A stretch of 32,193 nucleotides of DNA from Gammaproteobacteria bacterium (GTDB lineage Bacteria; Pseudomonadota; Gammaproteobacteria; Steroidobacterales; Rariloculaceae). The position numbers and the translations under genes are program-made. Positions 2 to 25,633 of the stretch are shown piece by piece. The notes under the pieces were generated by a model that ran no database searches, was not told the origin of the DNA, and was given only the letters and a program-made list of their open reading frames with translations. The DNA lies in NCBI GenBank assembly GCA_029864465.1, contig JAOTTJ010000006.1, positions 1 to 32,193 on the forward strand, given 5' to 3'. Within the stretch, counting starts at the first letter, position 1. Each line of letters starts with the position of its first letter.

Positions 2-1249
2 GTGTTGTCGGCCGAGGAAATCGAGCAACTGCGGGCGCAGGCTGAGGCGCTGCTCGCCGAGCTACTTCCACAGCAGGCGCGCCTCGGGGAGCTATCGGCG
101 GCGAACTGGGGTGAGGAGACTTGGGCGGAGTACGAGGCCTCTGCGCGTGCCGGCGATGATGCCTATCTCGCGAATGATTTTCAGGACGCGGTTCCGGCTT
201 ACGCGCGCGCGCTCGAGGTCGGCGAGCTGTTGCTCGCGCGGTCGGTCAGCATCATCGATGCGGCATTACAGGCCGGCAGCGCCGCGCTCGTTGCGGGCAA
301 CGCAGTATTGGCAGCGGAGCAATATCGGATCGTGCTCGAGATCGAGCCCGAGAACACAACGGCCCATCGCGGGCTCGAGCGTGCTGAGCGGCTGCCCGAG
401 GTCTTGCGGCTGACGCGCCAGGGGGAGATCTTCGAGCGCGACGGTGCGCTCGAGGATGCGGCCAGTGCTTTTCGCGATGCGTTAGCGATCGATTCGGAAT
501 GGGATCCTGCGCGCTCGTCGCTCGCGAATGTCGAAAACCGGTTACGAAACCGCAGCTTCGATCAGCTGATGTCGCAGGGGTTCAGCGCACTCGCGCAAGA
601 GGATTTCGACGAGGCGTTGGAACGGTTCACGGCTGCGCTTGCGGCCCGCCCGAGCTCGGAAGAGGCGATGGCGGGTAGACTGCAGGCCGAGCAGGGCCAG
701 CGGCTCGCCCAGATCGCGCTCATCGAAGCCAGGGCGATCGTCGCTGAGGCCACCGAGCGTTGGGCTCGAGCCATCGAGTTCTACGAGAGCGCGCTGGAGA
801 CAGATGCGACGCTCGTGTTCGCACGAGAGGGCCTGGAGAGGGCGCGGCGCAGAGGCGACCTCGACTCGAAGTTGGTTTATCTGCTCGAGAACCCGAATCT
901 GCTCTTCGACGATACCGTTCTGGCCGATGCGCAGGCTTTGCTTGCTGATGCGCGAACTGTTACCGAGGCTGGGCCGCGTCTTACCGAGCAAAGCGCCGAG
1001 CTCGAGCGGCTCCTCCGCTTGGCCTCGACGCCGATCGCGATTGAGCTGCAGTCCGACGAGCGCACCGAGGTCACGGTCTACCGCGTCGGCAAGCTCGGTA
1101 CTTTCGCGCAGATGACGCTCGAGCTGCGGCCTGGGACCTATACGGCCATCGGCAGCCGCGACGGCTATCGCGACGTTCGACAGACGTTCACGATCCTTCC
1201 CGGTAGAACGCTCGAGCCGGTCCGCGTTGAATGTAGGGAGACGATTTGA
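2..1249 (+). CDS. TPR-repeat protein with C-terminal PEGA-like domain (probably 5'-truncated by the window edge)
   Basis: Long ORF with TPR-like helices (e.g. DFQDAVPAYARALEV, DGALEDAASAFRDALAIDSEWDPA, EDFDEALERFTAALAARPSSEEA). C-terminus TEVTVYRVGKLGTFAQMTLELRPGTYTAIGSRDGYRDVRQTFTI is PEGA-like. Stop overlaps the next start (TGATG). Confidence 0.8.
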   Translation: MLSAEEIEQLRAQAEALLAELLPQQARLGELSAANWGEETWAEYEASARAGDDAYLANDFQDAVPAYARALEVGELLLARSVSIIDAALQAGSAALVAGNAVLAAEQYRIVLEIEPENTTAHRGLERAERLPEVLRLTRQGEIFERDGALEDAASAFRDALAIDSEWDPARSSLANVENRLRNRSFDQLMSQGFSALAQEDFDEALERFTAALAARPSSEEAMAGRLQAEQGQRLAQIALIEARAIVAEATERWARAIEFYESALETDATLVFAREGLERARRRGDLDSKLVYLLENPNLLFDDTVLADAQALLADARTVTEAGPRLTEQSAELERLLRLASTPIAIELQSDERTEVTVYRVGKLGTFAQMTLELRPGTYTAIGSRDGYRDVRQTFTILPGRTLEPVRVECRETI

Positions 1250-3681
1250 TGGTCAGCGACGAGTGGATCGTGCACACGCGCGTCGACGATCAGCAGCGCC
1301 GGTTCGCGCGGGAAGCGCTGCCGCTTACGATCGGCGCGGAGTCGAATGCCGACGTTCGACTACAAGATGTCACCGGCTCCGTGCAAATCGGTGAACTGGA
1401 TGGCGCTTTCTTCATTCAGCCGGGTCGTGACACACGCAACCTGCGCATCGACGGCGAGCTCGTCAGAGGCTCACGCTGGCTGCGCGGTGGGGAGACCGTG
1501 GCCCTCGATACCGCTCGGCTCGTTTGCAGGGTCGACGGCGGGCAGCTCACGTTGACGATCGACGGACACGTGACGGGCGGTGATACGGCGCCGCCTGATC
1601 TCGATGAGCTGGCGCGGGAAACTGCGGATATTGGTGCGCTGGAGATCAAGCCGATCGCGTTTCGCCCGCAGGCTGATACCGTGACTGACGCACCGTCAAC
1701 GCGCGCGCGGGCCGCGACGATAGGCGTTGGAAGCGCGTTCGCTGTGCTGGCCGTCCTCGGATGGTTCGCATTTACGGCGAAATCGGTGGAGATTACCGTC
1801 ACGCCGGCACCCGTTGAGCTCAGTCTGCCTGATACGCTCTTTAAGCTGAGATTGACCGATCGGTATCTTCTGCGCTCGGGCTCGCATCGCGTGGCAGCGA
1901 CGCTGCCTGGTTACTATCCGCTCGATACGGAAATCGACGTTGGGTTCTCATCGGATCAATCGTTCGAGCTCGAGCTCGTCAGGCTACCTGGGCTCATCAC
2001 GCTCACGACGATCCCCGACATCGGCGCCGAGGTGCGCGTCGACGGTGAACCGCTCGGCGTCACACCGATCACCGACGCGGAGATTCGGCCGGGCGCCCAT
2101 CGCATCGAGTTCGTCGCGGACCGTTATCTGGCGGAGGTTCGCGAGCTCGATGTGGTCGGCGGCGGCGAGCGGCAGAGCCTCGACGTTGCGTTAACACCCA
2201 ATTGGGCGCCCGTCACGGTTGCAAGCCAGCCGGCTGGCGCTGAGATTCTAGTCGACGGCACGGTGATGGGTGTGACGCCGCTCGACGTGGAGATCACGGC
2301 TGGCCAGCACGATATCGAGCTGCGGCTGCGCGGCTACAACGCCTGGCGAGATTCGATTTCCGTGCTCGCCGACCAGCCGCAGGTGCTGCGGCCGGTCGAG
2401 CTCACGCAGGCTGATGGGCGAATCGAGCTCGTCACTGATCCGGAGGGCGCGGCGGTCAGCGTCAACGGCGAGTTTCGCGGCCAAACTCCGTTAACCTTGC
2501 GGCTCGACCCTGGCAGGCAGCACTCGCTGAGCTTGACGAAGCCGGGCTATGAATCGATTTCGCAGACGTTGTCTGTCGAGGCCGACAGCGGCCGCCGGCT
2601 CGCACTCTCGCTCGTGGCGCAAATCGGCGTCATCGATATCGTCAGTGAGCCGGTCGGGGCGCAGATATTCGTCGACGGTGTCGGCGCTGGAACAACGCCT
2701 CAGCAGCTGACCCTCACGGCGTTGCCGCACGATCTGGAAATTCGCCTCGATGGATACGCTGTCCAGACCCGAGAGATCACTCCGCGTCCAGGCTTTCCAC
2801 AGGAATGGCGTGTCGACCTCGAGCAGCTTGACGCACTGACCGGGTCTGGTTATGCGCGAACAGTGCAGACGGGCCTTGGCCAGGAGCTCAGACTCATTTT
2901 GCCGGGCGAGTTCACGATGGGTTCGTCGCGGCGTGAGCAGGGGCGGCGCACGAACGAGGTATTGCGACCGATTCAGCTCAGCGAGGCGTTCTACCTCGGT
3001 GTGAAGGAGGTCTCCAACGCCGAGTTTCGGGCCTTTGCGGCCGATCACGACTCGGGGAGTTTCTCTGGAGTGAGTCTCAACGACGACGAGCAGCCCGTCG
3101 TGCGCGTGGCTTGGGAACAAGTTGCGCAGTATCTCAACTGGCTCAGCATTCGGGACGGTTTTCAGCCGGTGTACGCAGAGACGAACGGCGTGTGGGCGCC
3201 CGTACGCCCGCTGCGCAGCGGTTACCGGCTACCGACCGAGGCCGAGTGGGCATGGGCAGCTCGATTCGCCGAGCAGGAGCAGCCGCTGGTTTATCCGTGG
3301 GGACTGGAGTTCGACCCTCCGGACCGTCACGGTAACTATGCCGATATTGCGGCTGCCGAATTACTGCCTACGGCACTAGTCACGTATAACGATGATTTCG
3401 CCGTCGCCGCGCCCGTCGGTAGCTTCGAGCCCAACGCCGTCGGTATTTTCGATCTCGGTGGCAACGTCGCCGAATGGGTCCAGGACTACTATGAGATCGG
3501 TAGCAGTGCGACCACGCAGGTGCTCGTCGATCCGCTCGGACCTACCGAGGGGCGGGCGCATGTCGTGCGCGGCTCGAGCTGGCGCAGCGCCACTCTGCCC
3601 GATCTTCGGGTGGCGGCGCGAAATTACAGCACCGAAGCCAGAGAGGACATCGGTTTTCGGATCGCAAGAAACTTGGAATGA
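1249..3681 (+). CDS. FHA-like N-terminus, single TM helix, 4-5 PEGA repeats, C-terminal SUMF1/formylglycine-generating-enzyme-fold domain
   Basis: N-terminal FHA-like LPLTIGAESNADVRLQD; TM IGVGSAFAVLAVLGWFAF; repeated PEGA signatures (GAEVRVDGEPLGVTP, GAEILVDGTVMGVTP, GAAVSVNGEFRGQTP, GAQIFVDGVGAGTTP); SUMF1 motifs (GEFTMGS, YRLPTEAEWAWAAR, DLGGNVAEWVQDYY, VVRGSSWR, IGFRIAR). ATG at 1249 preferred over TTG at 1246. Confidence 0.87.
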   Translation: MVSDEWIVHTRVDDQQRRFAREALPLTIGAESNADVRLQDVTGSVQIGELDGAFFIQPGRDTRNLRIDGELVRGSRWLRGGETVALDTARLVCRVDGGQLTLTIDGHVTGGDTAPPDLDELARETADIGALEIKPIAFRPQADTVTDAPSTRARAATIGVGSAFAVLAVLGWFAFTAKSVEITVTPAPVELSLPDTLFKLRLTDRYLLRSGSHRVAATLPGYYPLDTEIDVGFSSDQSFELELVRLPGLITLTTIPDIGAEVRVDGEPLGVTPITDAEIRPGAHRIEFVADRYLAEVRELDVVGGGERQSLDVALTPNWAPVTVASQPAGAEILVDGTVMGVTPLDVEITAGQHDIELRLRGYNAWRDSISVLADQPQVLRPVELTQADGRIELVTDPEGAAVSVNGEFRGQTPLTLRLDPGRQHSLSLTKPGYESISQTLSVEADSGRRLALSLVAQIGVIDIVSEPVGAQIFVDGVGAGTTPQQLTLTALPHDLEIRLDGYAVQTREITPRPGFPQEWRVDLEQLDALTGSGYARTVQTGLGQELRLILPGEFTMGSSRREQGRRTNEVLRPIQLSEAFYLGVKEVSNAEFRAFAADHDSGSFSGVSLNDDEQPVVRVAWEQVAQYLNWLSIRDGFQPVYAETNGVWAPVRPLRSGYRLPTEAEWAWAARFAEQEQPLVYPWGLEFDPPDRHGNYADIAAAELLPTALVTYNDDFAVAAPVGSFEPNAVGIFDLGGNVAEWVQDYYEIGSSATTQVLVDPLGPTEGRAHVVRGSSWRSATLPDLRVAARNYSTEAREDIGFRIARNLE

Positions 3682-3725
3682 TCGCTGGTTGTTAGGGTCT
3701 AAATAACGGAGAGTTCGAGACGGAG

Positions 3726-3959
3726 ATGCCATTTATGAGCGCAAATCGATGGATGCTCGCCGCGCTGCTATGGGGAGCGCTCGCGCTAGCCGTCTCGGCG
3801 CAGGAGTCGCAGGAGGAGGCGCCGCCGGCCGAGCCTGCGCCGCCGCCGGCCGAGCCTGCGCCGCCGCAGGCCGATGAGGAACGGACTCTCGAGGAGATAT
3901 TCATTCCTAGTGAGGAGATCGGCGCGGACGAGGAAGTCACATTTCCGATCAATATCTAA
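3726..3959 (+). CDS. short secreted or membrane-anchored acidic Pro-rich protein
   Basis: 77 aa with signal-like N-terminus (MLAALLWGALALAVSA) followed by PPAEPAPPPAEPAPPQA and an acidic tail. Lies in the cluster on the same strand. A start at 3735 is also possible. Confidence 0.6.
   Translation: MPFMSANRWMLAALLWGALALAVSAQESQEEAPPAEPAPPPAEPAPPQADEERTLEEIFIPSEEIGADEEVTFPINI
3824..3865 (+). repeat. two perfect copies of a 21-bp tandem repeat (gccggccgagcctgcgccgcc) encoding AEPAPPP units
   Basis: Identical 21-mers at 3824-3844 and 3845-3865. Confidence 0.9.
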
Positions 3960-4011
3960 CCCGGTCGACGATCGGTCCGGCTACCAAGGAACGGCGGAGT
4001 GATAGGAGCCT

Positions 4012-4812
4012 ATGAAGCGTACATTTCCGACAGAGTTTCTCTACCAGGTATTCGCGTTGATCATTGCGGTTATCGTCGTGCACGCTGTCTATGTGACGGT
4101 GGTACGCCCGCGTGCGACCGAGGTGATGGCAGAGCAGACGCTACGCATTCAGGAGGAGGAGAACTACACGGCCGAGCGTTCCATATGGGTCTTGATCCGA
4201 GATTTCGAGCAGGAGTCCTGCTTCGTGCTCATGATATGGGCGTTCTCGATCATGGGGTTCAAGGCGACCACGTCGTTGTCCGAGCGCGCGCTGCTGCAGC
4301 GCGAGCTTATTCCCGTACCGGACGGCGTGCGCATCTTGCCCGAGGACAGTCGCGAATACGCGCGTACGATCCAGGCATTGCCGGATCGCATGCGTGGCAT
4401 GTTGTTGCCACGCGTGTTGCTCTCGTCGCTCGAGCGGTTCGGCTCGACACGCAACGTGCAGGATGTCTCTTCAGTAGCCAATACACTATGCGAGTCGGAA
4501 GGTGAGCGGCTCGAGTCCGAGTTATCGATGATCCGCTACATCGCATGGGCGATCCCGTCAGTCGGGTTTATTGGCACGGTACGCGGTATCGGTGACGCGC
4601 TCGGGCAGGCCCACCGCGCCGTGGATGGCGATATCGCCGGGGTCACGCAGAGTCTGGGCACCGCATTCAACTCGACGTTCATCGCGTTGCTCATATCGAT
4701 TGTCGTCATGTTCCTCGTGCATCAGCTACAGCTTCTGCAGGAGCGTCTCGTGTTCGATACGCAGACCTATATCGATCACAATCTCATTCGCCACATGCAG
4801 GCGCGGGATTAG
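4012..4812 (+). CDS. MotA/TolQ/ExbB-family proton-channel protein
   Basis: N-terminal TM, second TM, cytoplasmic region, then IPSVGFIGTVRGIGDALGQA and LGTAFNSTFIALLISIVVMFLVHQLQLLQE, typical of the MotA/TolQ/ExbB domain. RBS taggag upstream. Confidence 0.9.
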   Translation: MKRTFPTEFLYQVFALIIAVIVVHAVYVTVVRPRATEVMAEQTLRIQEEENYTAERSIWVLIRDFEQESCFVLMIWAFSIMGFKATTSLSERALLQRELIPVPDGVRILPEDSREYARTIQALPDRMRGMLLPRVLLSSLERFGSTRNVQDVSSVANTLCESEGERLESELSMIRYIAWAIPSVGFIGTVRGIGDALGQAHRAVDGDIAGVTQSLGTAFNSTFIALLISIVVMFLVHQLQLLQERLVFDTQTYIDHNLIRHMQARD

Positions 4813-4832
4813 CGGTAGGCAGGACGGGTACG

Positions 4833-6242
4833 ATGTCGACTATCGCCATTGACATCAACGATGCGGGTATCGTTCTTGCTGACGAGTCGGGCATCGTCGC
4901 GGATGAGCCCGGCTATGCCTTCGTTGAAGGCCAGGCGATTCTTACCGGCCGGGACGCCTATGCGAAGGCGCGGCTGCATCCACGCCAGAGCAGCAACCGC
5001 TATTGGGATAGCCTGACGCTCGAGCCGGGGAGTGCGGGCGTCGACGGTGTCGGTAGCGCTGCGGAGCTCGCGTATGCGCAGCTCAAAGCGCTTTGGGAGA
5101 ACTACGGCGGCAACCGTAACGATGCGTTATTGCTCGTTCCAGGTTATTACGGCCGTGATGAGCTCGGTGTATTGCTCGGATTGGCTCATGAATGTGACAT
5201 CCCAGTACGCTCGATGCTGAGCTCGGCGGCCGCAGCCGCAGCTGCCCCGTACCCCGGTCGCCAACTCGTGCACGTCGACGCCGGGTTGCACCGTGTGTCG
5301 GTGACGCCGCTTGCGCAGGGCGAGGATGTCGCGGCCGATATGGAAAGATCGCTCGGCAACACCGGGCTCGCCTCGATTTCGGATCTGCTTGCGAAGCGCG
5401 TTGCGGAGCTCTTCGTGCTCGCGACACGCTTCGATCCGTTTCACAGCGCTGCGAGCGAGCAGCTTGTCTATGATCGCCTGCCGGCGTGGCTCGGCGAACT
5501 CGAACGGCACCCGGACTCAGTCGAGCTCAAGCTGCCGCGCGGCGGCGAGGATTTAACCATCGAAGTCGAAGGCGCGCAGCTCATTGGCGTCATGACGGGT
5601 TTCTACAAAGCTATTGTCCAGCTCATCGCCCAATGTCGAGAGCCCGGTGCGGAGCTCGTCGTGCTGTTGTCCGATCGTCTGGCAAGGATGCCCGGTATTG
5701 TCAGTGAGCTCGAGCGACTCGATGATGCGCTTGTCGTGACGTTGCCTGCCGGGCAGGCTGCGCTTGGCGCTGTGAGTCAGTCAGAGGCGCTCATCGGGGA
5801 TTCAGGCAACGTGCGGCTGCTCAAGCGCATGCCGTGGCGGGAGCCGCCCGCCGAGCCCGCGCCCGCCCGGCGCACTCTGGAGCCCGATGCGCCCGAGCCC
5901 GCACCCGCAGCCTCGACGGCCGACGATCCGGCCAGCCACATCGTCTATCGTGGAATCGCTTACCCCGTGGATTCGAGCGGCATTGTGATCGGCAGGGAAC
6001 CGATACCGCAGCGGCGCACGATCGTACTGAACGGCGGGCAGGGCGGCGTCTCTCGGGCACATTGCGAGCTCGTCAGGCAGAACGGTGAGCTCAAGCTCGT
6101 CGACAGGAGCCGCTTCGGCACGTTCGTGAACGAGAAGCGCATCTCAGGCGAGATCGCGTTGCAGCCGGCGGACGTGATCCGCATCGGCTCACCGGGTGAG
6201 CAGCTCCAGGTCATCCGTATGGAGGCCGCCGATGGCACGTAA
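4833..6242 (+). CDS. actin-like/Hsp70-like ATPase domain fused through a Pro/Ala-rich linker to a C-terminal FHA domain
   Basis: N-terminal MSTIAIDINDAGIVLAD and LVHVDAGLHRVSVTPLAQGE resemble actin/Hsp70 phosphate-binding segments. C-terminal FHA: IVIGREP..GGVSRAHCELV..GELKLVDRSRFGTFVNEKRI. Linker PPAEPAPARRTLEPDAPEPAPAAS. Confidence 0.75.
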   Translation: MSTIAIDINDAGIVLADESGIVADEPGYAFVEGQAILTGRDAYAKARLHPRQSSNRYWDSLTLEPGSAGVDGVGSAAELAYAQLKALWENYGGNRNDALLLVPGYYGRDELGVLLGLAHECDIPVRSMLSSAAAAAAAPYPGRQLVHVDAGLHRVSVTPLAQGEDVAADMERSLGNTGLASISDLLAKRVAELFVLATRFDPFHSAASEQLVYDRLPAWLGELERHPDSVELKLPRGGEDLTIEVEGAQLIGVMTGFYKAIVQLIAQCREPGAELVVLLSDRLARMPGIVSELERLDDALVVTLPAGQAALGAVSQSEALIGDSGNVRLLKRMPWREPPAEPAPARRTLEPDAPEPAPAASTADDPASHIVYRGIAYPVDSSGIVIGREPIPQRRTIVLNGGQGGVSRAHCELVRQNGELKLVDRSRFGTFVNEKRISGEIALQPADVIRIGSPGEQLQVIRMEAADGT

Positions 6243-7323
6243 GCGCCTTAATGTCTTCTCTCTCGCGTTTCTCGACGCAATGACGTGCGGCTTCGGTGCG
6301 GTCATTCTATTTTTCATGATAATCAACGCGAACGTCGATCAACGTCGCACCGTGATCCTCGACGATTTGTCGGCCGAGGTCGATCGCATGGAGCTGAAGG
6401 TTCTCACGGGGCGTAAGAATCTCGTTCAGCTCAAGCAGGACCTGGCCGAGCTCATCGAGCAGTGGGCTGTGCTTCGTGGCATGCGCCAGGAGATCGTCAG
6501 CGAAGTGCAGCAGACCGAGTCCGAATTCAGCATCATGACGGCCGACACGGAGTCGCAGACCGAGATCATCGAGCGGCTGCGTTCCGATCTCGAGCAGCTT
6601 CAGGCTGAAACGGAGCGTTTGTCAGCCGCTAGCATTACTCCGGACGATGCCGGCAATCGAATTCGCAGCTTCATAGGCGACGGCAATCGGCAGTATCTAA
6701 CGGGCTTGCGCATGGGCGGCGAGCGCGTCGTCGTTCTGGTGGATGCGTCCTCGAGCATGCTCGATCGAACGATCGTCAACATCATCAGGCGGCGCAATAT
6801 GCCGCTGCAGCAGCAGATCAATTCGCCGAAGTGGCAGCAGGTCGTCAACACGGTCGACTGGCTGACGACGCAGATTCCGCCCGGGACCCAGTTTCAAGTC
6901 ATCGCGTTCAATGACACGGCCTGGTCGCTCATCGAGGGCACCGACGGGGAGTGGCTTACTGTTCGCGACGGCGCCCAGCTCGAAGAAGCCGTACAGGCAC
7001 TACGCAACATGGCGCCGAGCGGGCCGACAAGCCTGCACATGGCGTTCGAAGCGATGCGCCCACTCGATCCGAAGCCTGACAATATCTATCTGCTCGTCGA
7101 TGGCTTGCCGACGATTGGCGAGGTGATTCCGATCAAGGCCGGCGTGACGGGCCGAGAGCGCATGGGGCATTTCAACCGTGCAGTTCGTGATCTACCCTTC
7201 AACGTGCCCGTTAATATTATCTTGTATGCGATGGAAGGCGATCCACAAGCAGCGCCCGCCTATTGGTGGCTTGCGCTGCGGACCGGCGGATCCATGATGG
7301 CGCCATCGGAGGATTGGCCATGA
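6232..7323 (+). CDS. N-terminal TM, coiled coil and VWA-domain protein (paralogue A)
   Basis: Start ATG 6232 overlaps the previous stop. N-terminal FSLAFLDAMTCGFGAVILFFMIINANV; long heptad-like region; MIDAS VLVDASSSM, SGPTSL and LLVDGLPT. Confidence 0.85.
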   Translation: MARKRLNVFSLAFLDAMTCGFGAVILFFMIINANVDQRRTVILDDLSAEVDRMELKVLTGRKNLVQLKQDLAELIEQWAVLRGMRQEIVSEVQQTESEFSIMTADTESQTEIIERLRSDLEQLQAETERLSAASITPDDAGNRIRSFIGDGNRQYLTGLRMGGERVVVLVDASSSMLDRTIVNIIRRRNMPLQQQINSPKWQQVVNTVDWLTTQIPPGTQFQVIAFNDTAWSLIEGTDGEWLTVRDGAQLEEAVQALRNMAPSGPTSLHMAFEAMRPLDPKPDNIYLLVDGLPTIGEVIPIKAGVTGRERMGHFNRAVRDLPFNVPVNIILYAMEGDPQAAPAYWWLALRTGGSMMAPSEDWP

Positions 7324-8324
7324 GCAAGAAACGCCGCGACACCGAGAGCATGAACTTGTCGTTCCTCGACGTTATCACGTGCGGCTTCGGCGGCATCATC
7401 CTGTTGCTCGTTATAACGAAGATGTTCGAGCCGATCCGACTGGAGGAAAGCCACACCGAGCTCGAGGGGCTCATCACGCGTTACCAGGAGGAGCTCAACG
7501 ACATTCTCGGTGAGACCGATGTCGTGCAACGCGAACGGTTGATGACGGCCGAAAATGTCGAGCAAGACGAAATTCAAATTGCCCAGTTGCAGGAGGAGCT
7601 CGTTCGCATCCGTGCCGCCGTTCTCGCCAGCGAGGACGACGCGAGTGTGTCGTCGGAGCTCGCCGGACAGCTCGCGCAAGCCAAGCAGCGCCTGACCGAA
7701 GAGATGCAGCGGTTGCTCACGGATTACCGGCCTGATCCCGATGAATACATGGTTGGCGGTATTCCGGTCGACAGTGAGTACATCATCTTCATCATCGATA
7801 CGTCGGGCAGCATGCAACGCTATGCCTGGGACCGTGTCCGTCGTCAGATCAGCGAGACGCTTGCTGTCTACCCGCAGGTGCGTGGCATCCAGGTCATGAA
7901 CGACATGGGCGAGTACATGTTCAAGAGCTACCGGAACGAATGGATTCCGGATACGCCGGGTCGGCGCGAGGCAATCAACGATGCGCTCTCGAGCTGGAAT
8001 GCGTTCTCCAACTCGAGCCCCCGTGAGGGTATCCTCGCGGCGATCGAGGCGTTCTATGATCCGACGAAGAAGATCAGCCTCTATGTGTATAGCGATGATT
8101 TCTCTGCCGGGTCGATCAACGCGGTCGTACGCGAGGTAGATCGCCGCAATCTGGCTGGCGCCGACGGCACGCGCAGGGTGCGCATTCACGCCGTTGCGTT
8201 TCCTGTCTACTACGAGGTCGCCAACGGCGAGCTACTGTCCTCGGCCCGGTTCGCGATCTTGATGCGCGAGCTCTGCCAGCGAAACGGCGGAACCTTCGTC
8301 GCGCTGCCCTCGCTCAGACGCTAG
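7320..8324 (+). CDS. N-terminal TM, coiled coil and VWA-domain protein (paralogue B)
   Basis: ATGA overlap with the previous stop. N-terminal MNLSFLDVITCGFGGIILLLVITKMF; coiled-coil stretch; VWA MIDAS FIIDTSGSM. Confidence 0.85.
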   Translation: MSKKRRDTESMNLSFLDVITCGFGGIILLLVITKMFEPIRLEESHTELEGLITRYQEELNDILGETDVVQRERLMTAENVEQDEIQIAQLQEELVRIRAAVLASEDDASVSSELAGQLAQAKQRLTEEMQRLLTDYRPDPDEYMVGGIPVDSEYIIFIIDTSGSMQRYAWDRVRRQISETLAVYPQVRGIQVMNDMGEYMFKSYRNEWIPDTPGRREAINDALSSWNAFSNSSPREGILAAIEAFYDPTKKISLYVYSDDFSAGSINAVVREVDRRNLAGADGTRRVRIHAVAFPVYYEVANGELLSSARFAILMRELCQRNGGTFVALPSLRR

Positions 8325-8545: not shown

Positions 8546-9268
8546 ATGATCAGAAAAATCATTATCACGGGAATTTCAGCAACGATGATGACGAGCGTCG
8601 GCTGGACCGCGGAACAGGACCAGGAGCCGACGAAGGAGCGGATCGGTGTCGCGAGTGGCGCCGTTTTGGGAGGCCTGGCGGGTGGGCCGATCGGTGTCGT
8701 CTTGGGTGCGGCGTTCGGCGGTTGGCTCGGGGACGAGTTCGACGTGCAGCGCCGCGAGCGGGACGACTTCGAGCAGCGCTGGGCGTTGGCCAGCGAAGAG
8801 GTTGCCAATCTCAATGGCCTTGTCCAGGGCAGCGAACGTGAGCTCGAGCGACTCAGGGCCGATTTCAGCCGTGACGCGACGACGATGCGCGAGAAAGTTC
8901 GGGAGGCGCTCGATGTACAGGTGCTTTTCAAGACCGGGGATACGTCTCTGGCCGAGGAGACAGGCAATCGGCTCACACGGCTCGCAGAGCTCGTCGCGGA
9001 CATGGACGGAATGCTGCTGCGTATCGAGGGTCATGCCGACGCGCGTGGTGCTGCGGAGTTCAACGAGCAGCTTTCGGCGCAGCGTGCGGCCACGGTCAGG
9101 GATGTGCTGATTCGGGCCGGCGTGCCGTCGGCACGAATCGTCATCGATGCACTCGGCGAGCGCGAGGCACATGCTGTCGGTGAGGATGTCGACGGCATGG
9201 CGCTCGATCGCCGCGTGCAGCTGACGTTGATCCCGTCAGCCGCCGAAGGCCGGATGGCGCGCGAGTAG
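8546..9268 (+). CDS. OmpA-family protein with glycine-zipper segment (resembles PdsO-type sortase-associated OmpA-like proteins)
   Basis: RBS aaggag at about 8532. Signal-like N-terminus; GAVLGGLAGGPIGVVLGAAFGGWLGDEF glycine zipper; OmpA C-terminal motif LLRIEGHADARGAAEFNEQLSAQRAATVRDVLIRAGV..DALGE. Confidence 0.83.
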   Translation: MIRKIIITGISATMMTSVGWTAEQDQEPTKERIGVASGAVLGGLAGGPIGVVLGAAFGGWLGDEFDVQRRERDDFEQRWALASEEVANLNGLVQGSERELERLRADFSRDATTMREKVREALDVQVLFKTGDTSLAEETGNRLTRLAELVADMDGMLLRIEGHADARGAAEFNEQLSAQRAATVRDVLIRAGVPSARIVIDALGEREAHAVGEDVDGMALDRRVQLTLIPSAAEGRMARE

Positions 9269-12129: not shown

Positions 12130-13938
12130 GTGACGAACGAAAATGTCTTCGAGACTCGGCTCGCCAAGGATATTTGGGAAACCAAGTACCGGTATGCCCG
12201 TGGGCCGGTGCCCGAGGTTTCCGTCACAGACACGTGGCAGCGAGTCGCCCGCGCGATCTCGCGCGTCGAGGCTAACGACCCGGATGGATGGCGCGCGCGT
12301 TTCCTCGGCGTTCTCGAGGGATTTAAGTTCCTGCCCGGCGGGCGCATTCTCGCCGGGGCGGGTACCCGCCATTCCACGACGCTCTGCAACTGTTTCGTCA
12401 TGGGCTTCATCGATGACTCGATGGAGAGCATCTTCGAGCGGCTCAAGGAAGGCGCGCTGACGATGCAGTGGGGCGGAGGTATCGGTGTCGATTTCTCGAC
12501 GCTGCGGCCGCAGGGTGTGGCTGCCGCAACGCGTAATACGACGGCTTCGGGGCCCGTGTCGTTTATGAGCGTCTGGGATGCAATGTGCGGCGCGTTGATG
12601 TCGACCGGCTCGCGCCGCGGCGCCATGATGGGGACACTGCGTTGCGATCATCCGGACGTCCGGACTTTCGTCAACGCCAAACGTACGGCTGGTGTGCTGA
12701 GTAATTTCAACCTCTCGCTGCAGGTGACGGACGAGTTCATGGCTGCTGTCGCTGCCGACGCGTCGTTGCCGTTGTGCTTCCCTCTCGCGGGGAGCGAGAC
12801 GGCCGCGCAGATGCGCCTGCTACGCTGGCCTGGTGCCGATGCCGAGCTGCCGTGCCGGGTGTTCGCCTCTGTGAGCGCCACCGATCTCTGGCACGAGATC
12901 ATGAGCGCGGCGTTCGAGACGGCCGAGCCCGGGGTGTTGTTCGTTGACCGCATCAACCAGCTCAATAACCTCTATTACTGTGAGCACATTACGACGACGA
13001 ATCCCTGCGGCGAGATTCCTCTGCCGCCGTATGGGGCCTGTGTGCTCGGCTCGCTGAACCTGACCGCGTTCGTCCGCGATCCGTTCTCGCGCGGTGCCGA
13101 GTTGCAGCTCGAGGAGCTCGGGCACGCCGCTGCCGTGGCCACGCGCTTTCTCGATAACGTCATTGACTGCTCCGCATTTCCGTTGTCCGAGCAACGTGAG
13201 CAGGCACAAGGGGCGCGGCGCATCGGCCTCGGGCTAACGGGGCTCGCCGATGCGCTCATGATGCTCGGACTCGATTATGCGAGCGATGCCGGTCGTGGGC
13301 TTGCCGAGACGACGATGCGCTGCGTTCGCGATGCGGCCTATCGTGCCTCGATCGGGCTCGCCGAGGAGAAGGGCAGCTTTCCGTTCTACGATCGTGATGC
13401 GTACCTTGCAGGTGAATATGTCGGTGACCTGCCGGACGACCTGAGAGACGGAATCGCCCGGTCCGGCATTCGCAACAGCCATCTGCTCGCAATCGCTCCG
13501 ACGGGGACGATCAGCTTGCTCGCGAACAATATCTCCAGTGGGATCGAACCCGTATTCGCGTACGAGGGCCAGCGCCGAGTCCTCGATCGCACGGGCGAGC
13601 CAGAGGCTCGAGAGGCGATCGACTATGCCTATGCGTTGTGGCGCGCGCGGAACTCGAGGCAAACTCGATTGCCGGCGTATTTCAAAACGGCTCAGGAAAT
13701 TTCAGCCGAAGATCATCTGCAGATGCAGGCGACCATGCAGCCGCTTGTCGACAACTCGATTTCGAAGACGATCAATGTGCCCGAGCATATTTCGAAGGAA
13801 GATTTCGCGTTCATCTATGCACGTGCGCACGAATTGGGGCTCAAGGGGTGCACGGTATTTCGGCCGAATGCTGTCAGGGGAAGCGTGCTCTCGCGGTCGA
13901 GCGGCGAGGCGATCCCGGGTTGCCCACTAGAGAGATAG
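12130..13938 (+). CDS. nrdJ: adenosylcobalamin-dependent (class II) ribonucleotide reductase
   Basis: FKFLPGGRILAGAGT, LCNCFVMG, MQWGGGIGVDFSTLRP, TNPCGEIPLPPYGACVLGSLNLTAFV, APTGTISLLANNISSGIEPVFA, TINVPEHISKEDF..GCTVFRPN. GTG start. Confidence 0.92.
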   Translation: MTNENVFETRLAKDIWETKYRYARGPVPEVSVTDTWQRVARAISRVEANDPDGWRARFLGVLEGFKFLPGGRILAGAGTRHSTTLCNCFVMGFIDDSMESIFERLKEGALTMQWGGGIGVDFSTLRPQGVAAATRNTTASGPVSFMSVWDAMCGALMSTGSRRGAMMGTLRCDHPDVRTFVNAKRTAGVLSNFNLSLQVTDEFMAAVAADASLPLCFPLAGSETAAQMRLLRWPGADAELPCRVFASVSATDLWHEIMSAAFETAEPGVLFVDRINQLNNLYYCEHITTTNPCGEIPLPPYGACVLGSLNLTAFVRDPFSRGAELQLEELGHAAAVATRFLDNVIDCSAFPLSEQREQAQGARRIGLGLTGLADALMMLGLDYASDAGRGLAETTMRCVRDAAYRASIGLAEEKGSFPFYDRDAYLAGEYVGDLPDDLRDGIARSGIRNSHLLAIAPTGTISLLANNISSGIEPVFAYEGQRRVLDRTGEPEAREAIDYAYALWRARNSRQTRLPAYFKTAQEISAEDHLQMQATMQPLVDNSISKTINVPEHISKEDFAFIYARAHELGLKGCTVFRPNAVRGSVLSRSSGEAIPGCPLER

Positions 13939-13948
13939 GCGGGCCAGT

Positions 13949-14455
13949 CTAGTCGTCTCTGCGCCAGGCTAGACGGATGAAGTAGCCTTCCTCGTCGTAA
14001 TGCATGTCGAGCTCGCCGTTCCAGGCGCTATTCAGCGCTTCGGCAATACGTCGCGGCAAGTGGACGTCGGTCGTCGTGATGCGCAGGCCGTCATCGAGCT
14101 CTTCGATGTCCATGATGCGATTCAGGGGATGTTCGGTCTTTTCCGTCTCCTCGATATTCTTCGCGAGATTCAAGATCTCCTGCTTATGCGCGGCGACGAA
14201 AGCGCCTTGAATAGCCAGCTCACCTGCCGGGTAGCGGTCCGCGATGCGTTGACACGCCTGGCACAGCTGACTGTTGGCCTCGCCGTCCGGGACCTCGTCC
14301 CACGTCCAGCGGCCCTTTCGATAACTCGCGCCGCATTGCGGGCATACCGTCGGCTCCTGCAGCTTGCCGCGGAGCTTGTAGGTGTCGTGCCGCCGTTCCT
14401 GAACGTTGCGAATGCGCGCGGGTCCTTGCGGTGCGCGATCGTCGACTTTGCTCAT
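13949..14455 (-). CDS. BCAM0308-family protein (Zn-ribbon, NMD3-like)
   Basis: DTYKLRGKLQEPTVCPQCGASYRKGRWTWDEVP..LCQACQRIADRYPAGE: two CxxC pairs typical of this family. Confidence 0.75.
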   Translation of the reverse strand: MSKVDDRAPQGPARIRNVQERRHDTYKLRGKLQEPTVCPQCGASYRKGRWTWDEVPDGEANSQLCQACQRIADRYPAGELAIQGAFVAAHKQEILNLAKNIEETEKTEHPLNRIMDIEELDDGLRITTTDVHLPRRIAEALNSAWNGELDMHYDEEGYFIRLAWRRDD

Positions 14456-14658
14456 TTATTTGTCACCTGCCGAAATAGTTTCATGTCAATGCTAGTTCGA
14501 GCAATCGGCCACGCGCGGTTGGCTCGACCGGGGACCTTCGCGCTCGTGTGTCCAAGTAAGTATCAATTCGGATATCCGCGAGGTGCTGCACTGGCCTAAA
14601 GTACGAGACTGTCATTCTCTGCTAGGCGCCCCTATTACGGCGATACGTAGTTGTCACG

Positions 14659-15579
14659 ATGAAAGAAAAGATCAAGCGAGTCCTGGTGGCGCTCAAACCC
14701 TGGCAGGGCGGGACGCCGCTGTCCGTTTACCATGCGCGCTTCCTGGCCGAGAATCTCGGCGCCGAGCTGCGGTTGTTGAGCTGCGTCTTCGAGCCGGAGA
14801 TCTCGCTCGGCGTTTTCAACGAAGAGCCCGAGGCTGCGGCTGCGCAGGTCGGGCTGGTCGAGTCCGAACGCAGCGTGCTGGCGGATCTTGCCGCATCGCT
14901 GGCCGACTGGGGCATCTACGCCCAGGTCGAGGTGCGCTGGGGTTACCCGGCTGAGGAGGTCGTTCTCGCCGAGATCGAGAGCTGGCAGGCGGATCTGCTC
15001 GTCGTCGGCACGCATCAAGCCGGATCCAGGCCGTATACGCGGCTTGCCCAAGTCGATTGGCAGCTGATGCGTAGCTGCCCCTGCCCGATGCTCCTCGCGC
15101 GCGACCCGCAGTTCGAGGGATACACGAAGGTGCTCGCGGCCGTCGATCCGCTCCACCGCCATGCCGAGCCGTCCGGGCTGGATCAGAGCGTTCTCGAAGC
15201 CGCGTCTCTGCTCGCCAAGGCTTCGGAATCAGAGCTGCTCGTCGCCCATGTGCATCCCGATCCCCAAGACTATGCGTTGGCCTCCGCCGTCGAGGTGTTG
15301 CCGGGCGTCTATTACGGCAACGAAAATATCGAGGATGTGCACAGAAAAGCGCTTATGGAGCTCGTCGAAAACTTCGGAATCAGGCGTTCGCAGGTTCTGT
15401 TGACGTCGGGAGATCCAGCCGAGCAGCTCGGCAATTTGATTGTCGAGAATGACGTTGATCTCGTCGTCCTCGGTGCGCTCAAGCGCGGCAGGCTCGAGCA
15501 ATGGCTGCTGGGCAGCACGGCGGAGCGAGTCGTCGCGGAGGTTAGCTGCGATGTCCTATTGATCAAGCCAGAAGCTTGA
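14659..15579 (+). CDS. universal stress protein with two Usp domains
   Basis: Two repeats of the Usp fold; second ends NDVDLVVLGALKRGRLEQWLLGSTAERVVAEVSCDVLLIKP (Usp ATP-binding signature). Confidence 0.88.
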   Translation: MKEKIKRVLVALKPWQGGTPLSVYHARFLAENLGAELRLLSCVFEPEISLGVFNEEPEAAAAQVGLVESERSVLADLAASLADWGIYAQVEVRWGYPAEEVVLAEIESWQADLLVVGTHQAGSRPYTRLAQVDWQLMRSCPCPMLLARDPQFEGYTKVLAAVDPLHRHAEPSGLDQSVLEAASLLAKASESELLVAHVHPDPQDYALASAVEVLPGVYYGNENIEDVHRKALMELVENFGIRRSQVLLTSGDPAEQLGNLIVENDVDLVVLGALKRGRLEQWLLGSTAERVVAEVSCDVLLIKPEA

Positions 15580-15604
15580 TCGGCGCCGGTGCGGTTAGCG
15601 GGTA

Positions 15605-16783
15605 ATGCGCGGCAAGGGGCTCAGACTCGGCGAAGTGCACGGTATCGAGATCCGGCTCGACCTCAGCGTCGCAATTATCTTCTTTCTTGTCGTTTACAGC
15701 CTCGGTGCGGGATTGTTTCCGCAATGGCACGGTGATTGGAGTCCGGGGCTCAGCTGGGCGACGGCCCTAGCGGCCGCATTGCTGTTTTTCGCGTCATTGC
15801 TTGCGCATGAGCTCGCGCACTCGATCATGGCGCAACGCCATGGCATCGTCGTGCCGCGCATCACGTTGTTCGTCTTCGGTGGCGTTTCGGAGCTCGAGAC
15901 AGAACCGCGTACGCCGAGCATGGAGTTCAGCATCGCGATCGTCGGGCCGCTGACGAGCTTGGCGCTTGGCTTGCTGTTTGCGATTCTCGGACTCGATCTC
16001 GCCGGTGCCGGCTTTCTCGACGAGCTCCAGGCCGACCCAGAAGCCGCGATGGCTTCGCTCGGGCCGGTGGCGACGCTGCTGATGTGGCTCGGCCCGGTCA
16101 ATCTCATGCTCGCGATCTTCAATCTCGTGCCGGGCTTCCCGCTCGACGGCGGGCGCGTACTCAGAGCTGCTCTGTGGTGGCTCGGCGGGGATCTGCGGCG
16201 CGCGACGCAGAGAGCGTCTCAGGTCGGTAGCGGCTTCGCTTGGGCGCTCATGGCCTGGGGGGCATGGGAGGCGCTCGGGGGCGCTGTTATCCAGGGGTTG
16301 TGGCTCCTGTTGATCGGCTGGTTTCTGAACAACGCCGCGCGCGCGAGTTATCTGCAGCTGTTGCTGGTGCAGGCAATGGAGTCGCTCGAGGTCGCCGACC
16401 TCATGCGAACGCGTTTCGAGAGCATTCAAGCCGACGCCCCGTTGCAGGATTTCATCGACGACAAGTTGTTGCGCAGTGATCAGGTCGCGTGGCCCGTCCT
16501 CGAAGGCGGGCATCCCGTCGGGCTCATCGGCCTCGACTCCATTCGTGCCCGCCTCAAGGAGGAAGCGCAGCCCCGAACCGTCGCAGAGGCCATGGGCGGC
16601 ATCCACGAGTCCGTTTCGCCGCATCTACGTGGCCGCGAGGCGTTGCAGCTGTTGCTCGAGTCGCGGCGTGATCCCATTCCCGTTCTCGAAGCGGGCCGGC
16701 TCGTGGGGCTCCTGTATCATGCCGACCTCATGCGCTGGTTGGCGCTCCACGAGATCGAGACCCGACAGAGAATTCATTTCTAA
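15605..16783 (+). CDS. site-2 protease (M50 family) with C-terminal CBS domains
   Basis: LLAHELAHSIMAQRHG (HExxH) and NLVPGFPLDGGRVLRAALWW, multiple TM helices, followed by CBS-like region VADLMRTRFESIQADAPLQDFI..VLEGGHPVGLIGLDSI. Confidence 0.9.
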   Translation: MRGKGLRLGEVHGIEIRLDLSVAIIFFLVVYSLGAGLFPQWHGDWSPGLSWATALAAALLFFASLLAHELAHSIMAQRHGIVVPRITLFVFGGVSELETEPRTPSMEFSIAIVGPLTSLALGLLFAILGLDLAGAGFLDELQADPEAAMASLGPVATLLMWLGPVNLMLAIFNLVPGFPLDGGRVLRAALWWLGGDLRRATQRASQVGSGFAWALMAWGAWEALGGAVIQGLWLLLIGWFLNNAARASYLQLLLVQAMESLEVADLMRTRFESIQADAPLQDFIDDKLLRSDQVAWPVLEGGHPVGLIGLDSIRARLKEEAQPRTVAEAMGGIHESVSPHLRGREALQLLLESRRDPIPVLEAGRLVGLLYHADLMRWLALHEIETRQRIHF

Positions 16784-16798
16784 CGAAGAGATATAGCA

Positions 16799-17173
16799 AT
16801 GGACCTTAACCCGGATACAGTGCGTTTCATTATCGACAAAGCTCGTGAATTCCACGTCAAGGAAGAGGTGACGATACCCGAGGAGCCGTTGAGTCCTAGC
16901 GACGATTGGGCCAGACAGATACTCGCCGATCATGCCGATGACCCGTCGTATCAGGAGGTCAAGGCCACGATCGACGATCTCGAGCCCGACCAGCAGGTGA
17001 CCTTGGTGGCGCTGATGTGGCTCGGCCGCGGCGACTACGCCGCCGACGAGTGGGACAACGCCGTCGAGAATGCGCAGGATAGCTGGAACGAGCGAACGGC
17101 GGAGTATCTGCTCGGAACACCGCTCGTCGCCGATTATTTATCGGAAGGCCTCGATGAGCTCGGCTACGATTGA
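16799..17173 (+). CDS. DUF3775 domain protein
   Basis: DLNPDTVRFIIDKAREFHVKE..LEPDQQVTLVALMWLGRGDY..TAEYLLGTPLVADYLSEGLDELG. Confidence 0.75.
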   Translation: MDLNPDTVRFIIDKAREFHVKEEVTIPEEPLSPSDDWARQILADHADDPSYQEVKATIDDLEPDQQVTLVALMWLGRGDYAADEWDNAVENAQDSWNERTAEYLLGTPLVADYLSEGLDELGYD

Positions 17174-17189
17174 GCGGCCGATTCCGGCG

Positions 17190-18047
17190 TCAGTTTTTCG
17201 GGGCCGATCTCGCGATCATGATCGAGCAACGCGTGAGCCGCAGTAGCTCACGAACGAGACCCGCGTTGGACCGCGTAAGGTGCGCAGGGGCGACGAGCGC
17301 CCGCGCGTTGCCGGCCTGCGCGAGAAAGGCCAATGTATGCGCGCCGAGGCTCGCCGCACGTAAACGCTCGACTCTGACCACAGCGTCTCGGCTGTGCCGG
17401 CGCAGCGCAGCCTCGACTTCGGCCTCATGCGATTGCGATCGCTCGCCGAGTAGCACCGTAAGCGAACTATTGCCCGCACGCGCAAGGCTCGCTGCGGCTC
17501 GGCCACTCGTTTCCACATCGGCCGCCTCGTCAATGATCGCAAGCACGGTGCTGCCCGTCGTCCAGCCCTCGCGTGCGTAGAGCACGTTCGGTAAATCGGT
17601 GCGGCAAAGTTGCTCTAATTGACTGGCCCATATCGACGGCGCGCCAGTCGCAAGCTGGGCGAGTTCGATCACGAGCATCTCGGCGTCTGCGGCAGCAATG
17701 GCGAGCTCGCCGACGAGTTGCCCGCGTAGTGTCCTGAACGCGTGCGGCAGACCGAGGCGCGCGGCTTCTCGCTCAAAGATCCGCCTGATTGCGAGCGATT
17801 GGGCGTTCAGCTGGCGTTCGAGCTGCGTGAAGTCGAGCGGTCGCGCAGCGCCCGACAGCATGACCTCTGTGGCTAGGCGACTCTGCGCGTGTGCGAGCAG
17901 CTCGGTATCCTCAATAAATAGGCCCAGCAGCTTGCAGCTTTGCTCGATCGCGACGTCCCGAAGTAGCTCGAGGCCCGCGCTTCCGGGCGCCGCCGGGTCC
18001 AGCGCCACGATGATCGCGCGCCGCTTGTCGTCGGCGTCGATCAACAT
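17190..18047 (-). CDS. divergent universal-stress-protein-like protein
   Basis: Usp-like opening (RRAIIVALDPAAPGSAGLELLRDVAIEQSCKLLGLFIED) and ending (ARALVAPAHLTRSNAGLVRELLRLTRCSIMIAR); last gene of a minus-strand operon. Confidence 0.6.
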   Translation of the reverse strand: MLIDADDKRRAIIVALDPAAPGSAGLELLRDVAIEQSCKLLGLFIEDTELLAHAQSRLATEVMLSGAARPLDFTQLERQLNAQSLAIRRIFEREAARLGLPHAFRTLRGQLVGELAIAAADAEMLVIELAQLATGAPSIWASQLEQLCRTDLPNVLYAREGWTTGSTVLAIIDEAADVETSGRAAASLARAGNSSLTVLLGERSQSHEAEVEAALRRHSRDAVVRVERLRAASLGAHTLAFLAQAGNARALVAPAHLTRSNAGLVRELLRLTRCSIMIARSAPKN

Positions 18048-18064
18048 GTCTGTGCGCGCGACAT

Positions 18065-20500
18065 CTACGTCGACTCCCCTTCGGATTCGGTCTCGTCCTT
18101 CTTGGCGTGGTCGAACTCCCGGCGCAGCTCTGCAAGCTCGATGAGCCGTTTTTCGACACGACCGTTGATGCTGTCCTCTGGAAACTGGCCTTCTTCATCC
18201 CGCTGACCTGCAGCGATACCGGTCAGCAGCGCGAGCGCCTCGTCGACTGTCGCGACGGGATAGATCGCAAACTGGCCGTTGCGTGCCGCCTCGACGACAT
18301 CGGCACGCAACATCAAGTGTTTGGCGTTGTCCGCAGGAATCAGAACACCTTGGTCACCTGTGAGTCCACGGGTCCTGCAGATGTCGAAAAATCCTTCGAT
18401 CTTTTCATTGACGCCGCCGATTACCTGAACTGTCCCATGTTGATTCATCGACCCGGTTACCGCGAGCGTCTGCCGAATCGGTGCATTTGCCAATGCGGAG
18501 AGCAGCGCACAGGTTTCGGCGATCGTTGCGCTGTCGCCCTCGACGCCACCGTAGCTCTGCTCGAATACCAGGCTCGCAGCGAAGGATAGCGGCGTCTCGG
18601 GAGCAAACGTCGCGCTGACGTAAGCGGATAAGATCAAGACGCCTTTGGAGTGTATCGGGCCGCCAAGCTCGGTTTCTCTCTCGATATCCACGATCTTGCC
18701 ATCGCCGATGCTGACGTTGGCCGTAATCTTCGACGGCTGACCGAAGGAAAATCGGCCCAGATCGATGACCGACAAGCCGTTCACTTGACCGACCCTCGTG
18801 CCTTGCGTGTCGATGAGAATGTCGTCGCGTTGAATCTCCTCGTGCATCTCCGAGCGCAGGCGGTCGAGACGATGAATTTGCGCGTCGATCGCTACCTGAA
18901 CGTGCTCGGCATGCACGGTATCGCTGTCTACCCGCCGTGCCCAGTAGTCGGACTCTCGAATGAGGTCGGAGACATCACGGAGCCGCGTGCTGAGTTTCTC
19001 GGCATCGCCCAGTAGTCGCGAGCTGTGCTCGATGATGCGCGCGACGGCGCGCGGAGTCAGAGGTAAGAGCCCTTCGCGCTGCGCGAGTGTCGCGATGAGT
19101 CTGCCGTAGAGCTGGATGTTGTCGTCTGTGCGGTCGATCCGGTTCTCGAAATCAGCCGCGACCTTGAAAAGTTCTTGGAAGTCCGGGTCGAGCTCGCAGA
19201 GGAGAAAATACAGGACACGGCTGCCGAGGAGGATGACCTTGCAGTCGAGCGGAATCGGGTCGGGCTCGAGCGACACCGTCGTTACGAGACTAAGCTGTTG
19301 CCCGAGCGACTCCATCCGGACAGCTTTCTCGAATAACGTGCGCTTCAGGGACGTCCAGGCATACGGCTCAGTGAGGAGCCGATCCGCGTCGAGAATCAGA
19401 AAGCCGCCATTGGCTTTGTGCAGCGCACCGGGCCGGATCATCGAAAAATCCGTGACCAGCGCGCCGAACTGGGGCACGTGCTCTATGCGACCGAGCAAGT
19501 TCTGATAAGTAGGGTTGCTTTCGTAGACGATCGGGACGCCACCGTCTTCCGGTTGCTCGACAACCACGTTGACCTGATAGCGCTGCAGTGAGCGAGACGG
19601 GTCGGCGCCGAACAATGTCTGCCGCGTTTCTTCGGGCTGGAAATCGGGCGCGTGCGCTAGCACGTCCTCGCGCATGTCCTCGAGGAATCGCAGCACCTCG
19701 GGAAACTTCCTATACGCTGCAGTCAGCTCGACGAACGGACCGCGTATTGCGAGCTCGGTGACCTCCCGGTCCAAGGTTCTGATTCGTTCTCGGCGCTGCT
19801 TGTGCCACTCGGGCAATTCTTCGATGTGCGCCCTGAGCTTCTCCGTCATGGCTTCCATGGCCGTGGTCGTGCGGTCTTTCTCCTTGTCCGAGAGCTTCTC
19901 GAAATCCTTGTCCGAGAGCAGCTTGCCAGTTCGCATCGGCGCGATTGCGAAGCCGTGCGGTGTCGGTACGAGGCTGACATCGTGTTGCTGTGCCTCCTGC
20001 TGCAGTGCTTCCATCGTCGCGCGGTGCTTTTCCTCGTACTCCTGCGTAATCTCGGCGACCTGATTACGATAGTGTTCGCTCTCGAAAGCAGCTGGTATTG
20101 CGGCGAGCAACTCATCGACGATGCTTGCCACGTCTTGCTTCAGCGTCGCACCTTTTCTGGCTGGCAGGCGCAGTGCGATAGGCTTGCGCTCGTCATTGAA
20201 ATTGTTGACGTAGCACCAATCCGACGGCGCGGCCTCGGTTCTCAGAGACTCGAGATATTCCTTGACGATACGGCGCTGGTGACTGCCGTCCGGTCCGAGA
20301 ACGAACAGGTTGTAGCCATCTCCGGTCATGCGAACGCCGAACTCAAGCGCCGACAATGCCCGCTGCTGGCCCACGGCGATATCGAGTTCAGCAAGCTCGG
20401 CGGTCGTGCCGAAGGCAAAGGCGCTCGCGTCACAGTGGTTGTAGAGCGACTCTGCGGCCAACGGCTGAGGACTGTTAATCGCTGGTATTTCTTTCGGCAC
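18065..20500 (-). CDS. Lon-like ATP-dependent protease / AAA-family ATPase (AAA_32 + Lon_C type)
   Basis: GQQRALSALEFGVRMTGDGYNLFVLGPDGS; LHKANGGFLILDADRLLTEPYAWTSLKRTL; Lon protease domain GVEGDSATIAETCALLSALANAPIRQTLAVTGSMNQHGTVQVIGGVNEKIEGFFD (Ser/Lys dyad). Confidence 0.9.
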   Translation of the reverse strand: MPKEIPAINSPQPLAAESLYNHCDASAFAFGTTAELAELDIAVGQQRALSALEFGVRMTGDGYNLFVLGPDGSHQRRIVKEYLESLRTEAAPSDWCYVNNFNDERKPIALRLPARKGATLKQDVASIVDELLAAIPAAFESEHYRNQVAEITQEYEEKHRATMEALQQEAQQHDVSLVPTPHGFAIAPMRTGKLLSDKDFEKLSDKEKDRTTTAMEAMTEKLRAHIEELPEWHKQRRERIRTLDREVTELAIRGPFVELTAAYRKFPEVLRFLEDMREDVLAHAPDFQPEETRQTLFGADPSRSLQRYQVNVVVEQPEDGGVPIVYESNPTYQNLLGRIEHVPQFGALVTDFSMIRPGALHKANGGFLILDADRLLTEPYAWTSLKRTLFEKAVRMESLGQQLSLVTTVSLEPDPIPLDCKVILLGSRVLYFLLCELDPDFQELFKVAADFENRIDRTDDNIQLYGRLIATLAQREGLLPLTPRAVARIIEHSSRLLGDAEKLSTRLRDVSDLIRESDYWARRVDSDTVHAEHVQVAIDAQIHRLDRLRSEMHEEIQRDDILIDTQGTRVGQVNGLSVIDLGRFSFGQPSKITANVSIGDGKIVDIERETELGGPIHSKGVLILSAYVSATFAPETPLSFAASLVFEQSYGGVEGDSATIAETCALLSALANAPIRQTLAVTGSMNQHGTVQVIGGVNEKIEGFFDICRTRGLTGDQGVLIPADNAKHLMLRADVVEAARNGQFAIYPVATVDEALALLTGIAAGQRDEEGQFPEDSINGRVEKRLIELAELRREFDHAKKDETESEGEST

Positions 20501-20571
20501 GGTCTAGCTCGAACGTTTCATCAGGTGGTTGCAGCATAGTACCAGTGTGGCGATGGGCTCGTGCACGGGGT

Positions 20572-22122: not shown

Positions 22123-22146
22123 CGGAGGTTCTGAGATAGGTGTTAG

Positions 22147-22596
22147 TCACTCTCTGAACGAACGTTCTCGCTCGATCTGTTTTGCGGAAATCTCAGCGAT
22201 GAAGCTCAGTTCCTTCGTTAGAATGCTCATGACGTCGTCCACGCTAAGCACGCCAAACAGCCCGCCATCGTCGTCGAGCACGGGGATGCGGCGCACACCT
22301 TTTATGCCCATGAAACGCAGTGTCTCGAATACGTCTGCGTCATGCGGCGCGGTCACGAGCGTGGCGCTCATGACGTCGCCGACATCGACCGTGCCGAGCG
22401 CTACTTCTTCTGCTAGAAGTTCGATGACGATGTCGCGATCGGTGACGATACCGAGCGGCTTCTCGATGCCGTCGGTGTGTTCGGTCACGATGATGTCGCC
22501 GATGTGATGCTTGCGCATCTCCCGGACGACTTCGAGGATCGAGGCATTCTTGGAAACCGTGATGACACTGCGGTTGCAGATTTCGCTGATCTTCAC
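22147..22596 (-). CDS. CBS-domain pair protein
   Basis: VKISEICNRSVITVSKNASILEVVREMRKHHIGDIIVTE..PLGIVTDRDIVIELL..VGDVMSATLVTAPHDADVFETLRFMGIKGVRRIPVLDDDGGLFGVLSVDDVM. GTG start at 22596 preceded by TTGGAG; the listed ORF start at 22659 is less likely. Confidence 0.87.
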   Translation of the reverse strand: MKISEICNRSVITVSKNASILEVVREMRKHHIGDIIVTEHTDGIEKPLGIVTDRDIVIELLAEEVALGTVDVGDVMSATLVTAPHDADVFETLRFMGIKGVRRIPVLDDDGGLFGVLSVDDVMSILTKELSFIAEISAKQIERERSFRE

Positions 22597-22757
22597 TTTG
22601 GGTTCTCCAAAAAACCTGGTGGCTGACGCATAGGTCGGACGTGCCCTGCAGTCTGGCATAGCTTTTCGAGGCAGCGAATCTTGGATTCTACCTACCCGAA
22701 GCGCGGCGCAGCTTCTCGGATTGGCTCGTCACGAAGCGCCGACCGGGCTTCGACCAC

Positions 22758-25620: not shown

Positions 25621-25633
25621 CTAGCTTTATCGG

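Follow-up and report, generated by a model that had tools for sequence, protein, structure and literature searches.

A conserved gammaproteobacterial operon predicted to encode an envelope-spanning, ion-driven machine with a paired VWA axle

The window analyzed here, a stretch of 32,193 nt, is the beginning of contig C308 in an assembly of 496 contigs, and ORF calling fills its positions 2-8324 with a set of seven co-directional genes (Table 1). A preliminary description of the sequence had taken these genes for a single operon with overlapping stop and start codons, and we confirmed three such junctions: 1 nt between the first and second genes, 11 nt between the fifth gene and VWA-A, and 4 nt between VWA-A and VWA-B. 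Both VWA genes begin at conserved starts, each an ATG (at 6232 and 7320), and small ORFs resembling the one that precedes the channel gene are found at the equivalent position in several relatives.

Table 1. Genes of the operon within the window
Feature	Position	Strand	Evidence
TPR protein, 5' end lost at contig start	1..1249	+	TPR_2 4.3e-12 (Pfam)
TM protein, 4xPEGA + C-terminal SUMF1/FGE-fold domain	1249..3681	+	PEGA 2.5e-47, FGE 2.3e-39 (Pfam)
Small secreted Pro/Glu-rich protein, 74 aa, hydrophobic N-terminal segment	3735..3959	+	ORF, hydropathy
MotA/TolQ/ExbB-family channel	4012..4812	+	PF01618 (MotA_ExbB) 8.1e-14, above cut-off
Cytoplasmic Hsp70-fold + C-terminal FHA protein	4833..6242	+	FHA 2.2e-13 (Pfam); Hsp70 fold from model
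VWA-A	6232..7323	+	VWA_2 3.8e-6 (Pfam)
VWA-B	7320..8324	+	VWA score 0.0011, below Pfam cut-off

The window begins mid-operon, and the upstream part, two lipoprotein genes and a Ser/Thr kinase gene, was recovered from C416 and C335, contigs of this genome that overlap one another and the window. The preliminary description had called for inspection of the region upstream of position 1, and these three genes are additions to its gene list. C416 ends in 82 bases that recur unchanged at the start of C335, and C335 in turn ends in 116 bases (1927-2042) that match window positions 21-136 exactly. An ORF start at base 2, as first read, is not genuine: the missing 5′ part of the TPR gene lies on C335, starting downstream of the kinase gene and encoding an N-terminal transmembrane (TM) helix (1632-2042 of locus L067). 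On the strength of these overlaps, which are its only joins, the full operon is reconstructed as lipoprotein A, lipoprotein B, kinase, TPR protein, PEGA/SUMF1 protein, small protein, channel, FHA/Hsp70-fold protein, VWA-A, and VWA-B. The operon of relatives also starts with two lipoprotein genes, plus the kinase gene in some. Immediately 3′ of the operon, within the family and at a small number of loci elsewhere, lies an OmpA-domain gene with a glycine zipper (8546-9268), whose best NCBIfam match, below cut-off, is PdsO, a sortase-associated OmpA-like protein; being outside the widely conserved set, this gene was rejected as a missing MotB-like part.

The channel gene had been described as having no ExbD/TolR/MotB-type neighbor, and indeed no ExbD/TolR gene was found on this contig, with 11 of that type elsewhere in the same genome. 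Its pore-lining threonines are encoded at 4576-4578 (residue 189) and 4675-4677 (residue 222). The Thr of GFIGTVRG and the Thr of FNSTFIAL are invariant among channel homologs, and both align with columns of the TolQ/ExbB/MotA paralogs from the same genome (hhalign probability 95.9, E 5e-9), columns known to hold the pore threonines. The partner-like topology initially ascribed to the VWA proteins also stands, each of them having a basic N terminus, a single Asp-bearing TM segment, a long helical or coiled-coil-like stretch, and a VWA domain. The TM motif FLD is found in both, with the Asp in every readable sequence (for this count, VWA starts in a second class were read allowing a non-standard start codon); the invariant Asp codons are at 6274-6276 in VWA-A and 7368-7370 in VWA-B. 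The MIDAS of VWA-A is complete (D, S, S, T, D) and its residues are invariant, and VWA-B, which is homologous to VWA-A across nearly the entire length, has an invariant DxSxS and later Asp despite its sub-cut-off Pfam score. Among solved structures, neither the channel profile nor that of lipoprotein B found a match, and VWA-B found only troponin, by a chance coiled-coil resemblance. Judged by sequence, three hallmarks of a 5:2 motor are present: a MotA/TolQ/ExbB channel, pore threonines, and a partner with a single Asp-bearing TM helix. It is highly likely that the operon encodes an ion-driven motor core, and the VWA-A/VWA-B pair is likely to be its axle.

The channel and the VWA pair occur together. 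In an even sample of 369 genomes of the class, the channel profile matched 31, from about 17 families, and the VWA-B profile matched 30, every one among those 31; one genome thus had the channel only, none had VWA-B only, and 338 had neither (Fisher p 2.7e-43, a descriptive value, the genomes being related). The channel profile was found in 16 of 399 genomes across the phylum, 13 of 78 in the second class, and 120 of 147 in the order to which this genome belongs, and VWA-A was found in all 22 genomes of the family and at 20 loci of GTDB species genomes. A plasmid search with VWA-B gave no matches. Conservation of the neighborhood, raised in the preliminary description as a check, was also evident at the level of gene order: at all 46 readable loci with channel and VWA pair, the recognized parts lie on one strand, in an order common to all except two. 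The kinase is missing at many of the 46 loci and the FHA/Hsp70-fold protein at several. VWA-A and VWA-B are paired at every one of them, which favors a heterodimer. The two rearranged loci (L061 and L062, family f94) have the channel gene after VWA-B rather than before VWA-A. In another genome (G234) the channel gene is on contig C39 (L060) and the VWA, FHA, and SUMF1 genes are on C5 (L074), naturally unlinked with both kept.

The preliminary description had proposed a new stator-like machine; co-occurrence, gene order, the TM Asp, and the pore threonines support the machine, but the idea is not new. A paper dated June 2025 (Mol Biol Evol 2025 msaf138; PMC12204202, Fig. 4c-d) predicts, with support from AF3 models, heterologous TM-vWA pairs in which the Asp of the transpore helix enters a pentamer of TolQ-like subunits; tolR/exbD is absent from the neighborhood, and the distribution is mainly in Proteobacteria and Verrucomicrobia. 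All features named for those motors are present here, namely a TolQ-like gene, a heterologous TM-vWA pair, a TM Asp, no tolR/exbD nearby, and a mainly proteobacterial distribution, the likeness being one of features rather than of families compared by sequence. The difference is in what surrounds the core: the main text of PMC12204202 describes no PEGA/SUMF1, FHA/Hsp70-fold, kinase, or lipoprotein genes, the terms PEGA and kinase not occurring in it at all, and it associates TPR with the other of its vWA families. The topic of vWA is absent from a 2026 review on Ton/Tol motors that cites the paper, and nothing beyond PMC12204202 was found on the full gene set in a search of open-licence papers. 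The preliminary description had named a published account of this exact gene set as grounds for refutation; among the papers searched, this applies to the core and not to the PEGA/SUMF1, FHA/Hsp70-fold, kinase, and lipoprotein components.

Pfam matches uphold the initial assignment of the TPR and PEGA/SUMF1-fold proteins (Table 1). The TPR protein consists of a periplasmic TPR domain and a C-terminal PEGA-like tail. At four loci (L044:2630-5092, L046:4673-7111, L058:11145-13613, and L059:10619-13048) kinase and TPR protein are fused in a single chain, joining a cytoplasmic kinase to a periplasmic TPR domain via a TM helix. The PEGA/SUMF1 protein, with a TM segment at residues 153-177 and its N-terminal about 150 residues in the cytoplasm, is probably a periplasmic scaffold. 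Structures of SUMF1 and of PorK from the T9SS are relatives of its SUMF1 domain; the domain was rejected as an active formylglycine-generating enzyme since the catalytic cysteine pair is missing, no Cys being found in the active-site segment in any of 15 sequences checked. An FHA domain at the N terminus of this protein had no Pfam support in the window or five relatives. The product of 4833-6242, initially labeled an FHA-ATPase, keeps its C-terminal FHA domain and loses the ATPase label: its model (pLDDT 87) has the fold of Hsp70 nucleotide-binding domains (Foldseek 1.1e-17, TM 0.67 by target length), but the nucleotide motifs are degenerate, the second phosphate loop being DAGLH or DLLQQ and not the Gly-rich DxGGG. 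The kinase keeps most catalytic motifs. In lipoprotein B the lipobox Cys is invariant, and the N-terminal part of the model is weakly like TolB/LptE (Foldseek 3.6e-4, TM-score about 0.16-0.18, a partial match). Contig C342 of the same genome encodes another lipoprotein B outside the operon (L070:5894-7030), a divergent copy with no channel or VWA gene beside it on that contig.

We propose, with a probability of about 0.78, that the operon encodes an envelope-spanning, ion-driven machine of the MotAB/ExbBD/TolQR (5:2) kind with a VWA axle. A pentamer of the channel would enclose one TM helix from VWA-A and one from VWA-B, two proteins that probably form an obligate heterodimer; their Asp residues would be turned toward the pore's two rings of Thr and would carry the ions. 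Ion flow would rotate or shift the VWA axle, the helical stalks would pass this motion to the periplasm, and the VWA domains would grip periplasmic partners via their metal-dependent (MIDAS) sites; we infer pore insertion, axle motion, and MIDAS gripping alike. These partners are likely to be the TPR protein, the catalytically dead PEGA/SUMF1 scaffold, and the two lipoproteins, one of them TolB-N/LptE-like in its N-terminal part. The cytoplasmic FHA/Hsp70-fold protein, with the kinase in some lineages, probably sets engagement of the motor, as in the T6SS threonine-phosphorylation pathway. By this analogy, phospho-control of the motor has about an even chance of being correct; the absence of the kinase from many lineages and of the FHA protein from some indicates that such control is not essential.

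The task of the motor would be constitutive upkeep of the outer membrane or envelope, as a Tol-Pal-like force transducer, an assignment that we hold tentatively, at slightly under even odds, on the basis of distribution. Retention in 22/22 family and 120/147 order genomes, including small genomes without detectable TolB, favors envelope housekeeping over phage defense. In family f266, the TolB N-terminal domain was undetected in all 11 sampled genomes (G778, G790, G802, G812, G821, G828, G834, G839, G844, G849, and G853; 1.1-1.6 Mb, several incomplete), and the channel was kept in 10 of the 11. Like Tol-Pal (TolQRA-TolB-Pal), the system has a channel of the superfamily with both pore threonines, a predicted outer-membrane lipoprotein with weak TolB-N likeness, and a housekeeping distribution. 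Unlike Tol-Pal, it has a VWA pair in place of TolR/TolA, with no ExbD/TolR gene on the contig, and additional PEGA/SUMF1/TPR and FHA/kinase proteins. Most other carriers examined possess TolB as well as the VWA motor, so the motor is not simply a Tol substitute, and simple replacement of Tol-Pal was rejected. A bolder claim is doubtful at present: that this is a phosphorylation-controlled, ion-driven machine across the envelope, separate from the Tol, Ton, Mot, Gld, and Zorya systems, that it has a VWA heterodimer for an axle and a lipoprotein/PEGA/SUMF1 scaffold of its own, and that in the small TolB-less genomes it has assumed some of what Tol-Pal does.

The same motor might instead drive the secretion of proteins or their display on the cell surface, in the manner of the T9SS or under T6SS-like regulation, and this is the alternative to which we give most weight, while judging it unlikely. 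The GldLM/PorLM motor and GldK/PorK of the T9SS likewise combine an ion-driven motor with a SUMF1-fold ring or scaffold protein, and the SUMF1-fold domain here is related to PorK/GldK; it is, however, part of an inner-membrane PEGA protein, and T9SS outer-membrane parts were not seen. The kinase and FHA protein recall the T6SS threonine-phosphorylation pathway (PMC10482370), and the TagQRST-PpkA-Fha system shares with this operon an outer-membrane lipoprotein, a periplasmic protein, a Ser/Thr kinase, and an FHA protein, which there act together as a control circuit; the likeness is one of parts only, and no T6SS genes are present here. Cargo or adhesin would be an unlinked protein or lipoprotein A, a candidate by virtue of its long, variable, low-complexity Gly/Gln/Ser-rich sequence and conserved C-terminal motif. 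Nevertheless, no recurrent outer-membrane channel or T6SS core gene was found at the examined loci, and retention of the channel in genomes as small as those of f266 favors a general task over secretion.

Another arrangement would have the VWA pair bound to the side of the motor as a force transducer like TolA/TonB, the channel taking its axle from an ExbD/TolR protein encoded elsewhere. The other vWA family of PMC12204202 binds the motor edge via an SHLS/His motif, and the 11 ExbD/TolR-type genes of this genome could provide a borrowed axle. Against this, the VWA TM helices bear FLD with an invariant Asp, like axle proteins, and at all loci examined the VWA pair and channel stay together with ExbD absent from the operon, making a side-bound pair improbable. 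Least probable is a Zorya-type phage-defense system, which shares the 5:2 motor channel superfamily and was suggested by a weak ZorA match (E 0.017) but was rejected: PADLOC matched no other part, except ZorB through the OmpA domain shared by the neighboring gene; a partner of the ZorB type carries an OmpA-like domain that binds peptidoglycan and not a VWA domain; effector genes are absent; and near-universal retention in family and order, with many family loci adjoining bioD/bioF, makes defense unlikely, defense genes being patchy and mobile.

If the VWA-axle motor reading is correct, the 5:2 motors include a branch in which metal-dependent VWA domains form the end of the axle, found in about 8% of evenly sampled genomes of the class and, within one large order, in most genomes. 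The full operon offers testable partners for a motor core known so far as structure prediction only, and in a motor-bearing lineage without detectable TolB, nature provides a test of whether Tol-Pal functions can be covered by other motors. Farther along the window, at 12130-30636, Pfam matches point to commonplace genes of metabolism and housekeeping: ribonucleotide reductase large subunit, Usp, M50 peptidase, LonB-like protease, AAA_33 protein, phosphomannomutase, class-III aminotransferase, TPP enzyme, amino-acid kinase with PUA, and aldehyde dehydrogenase.
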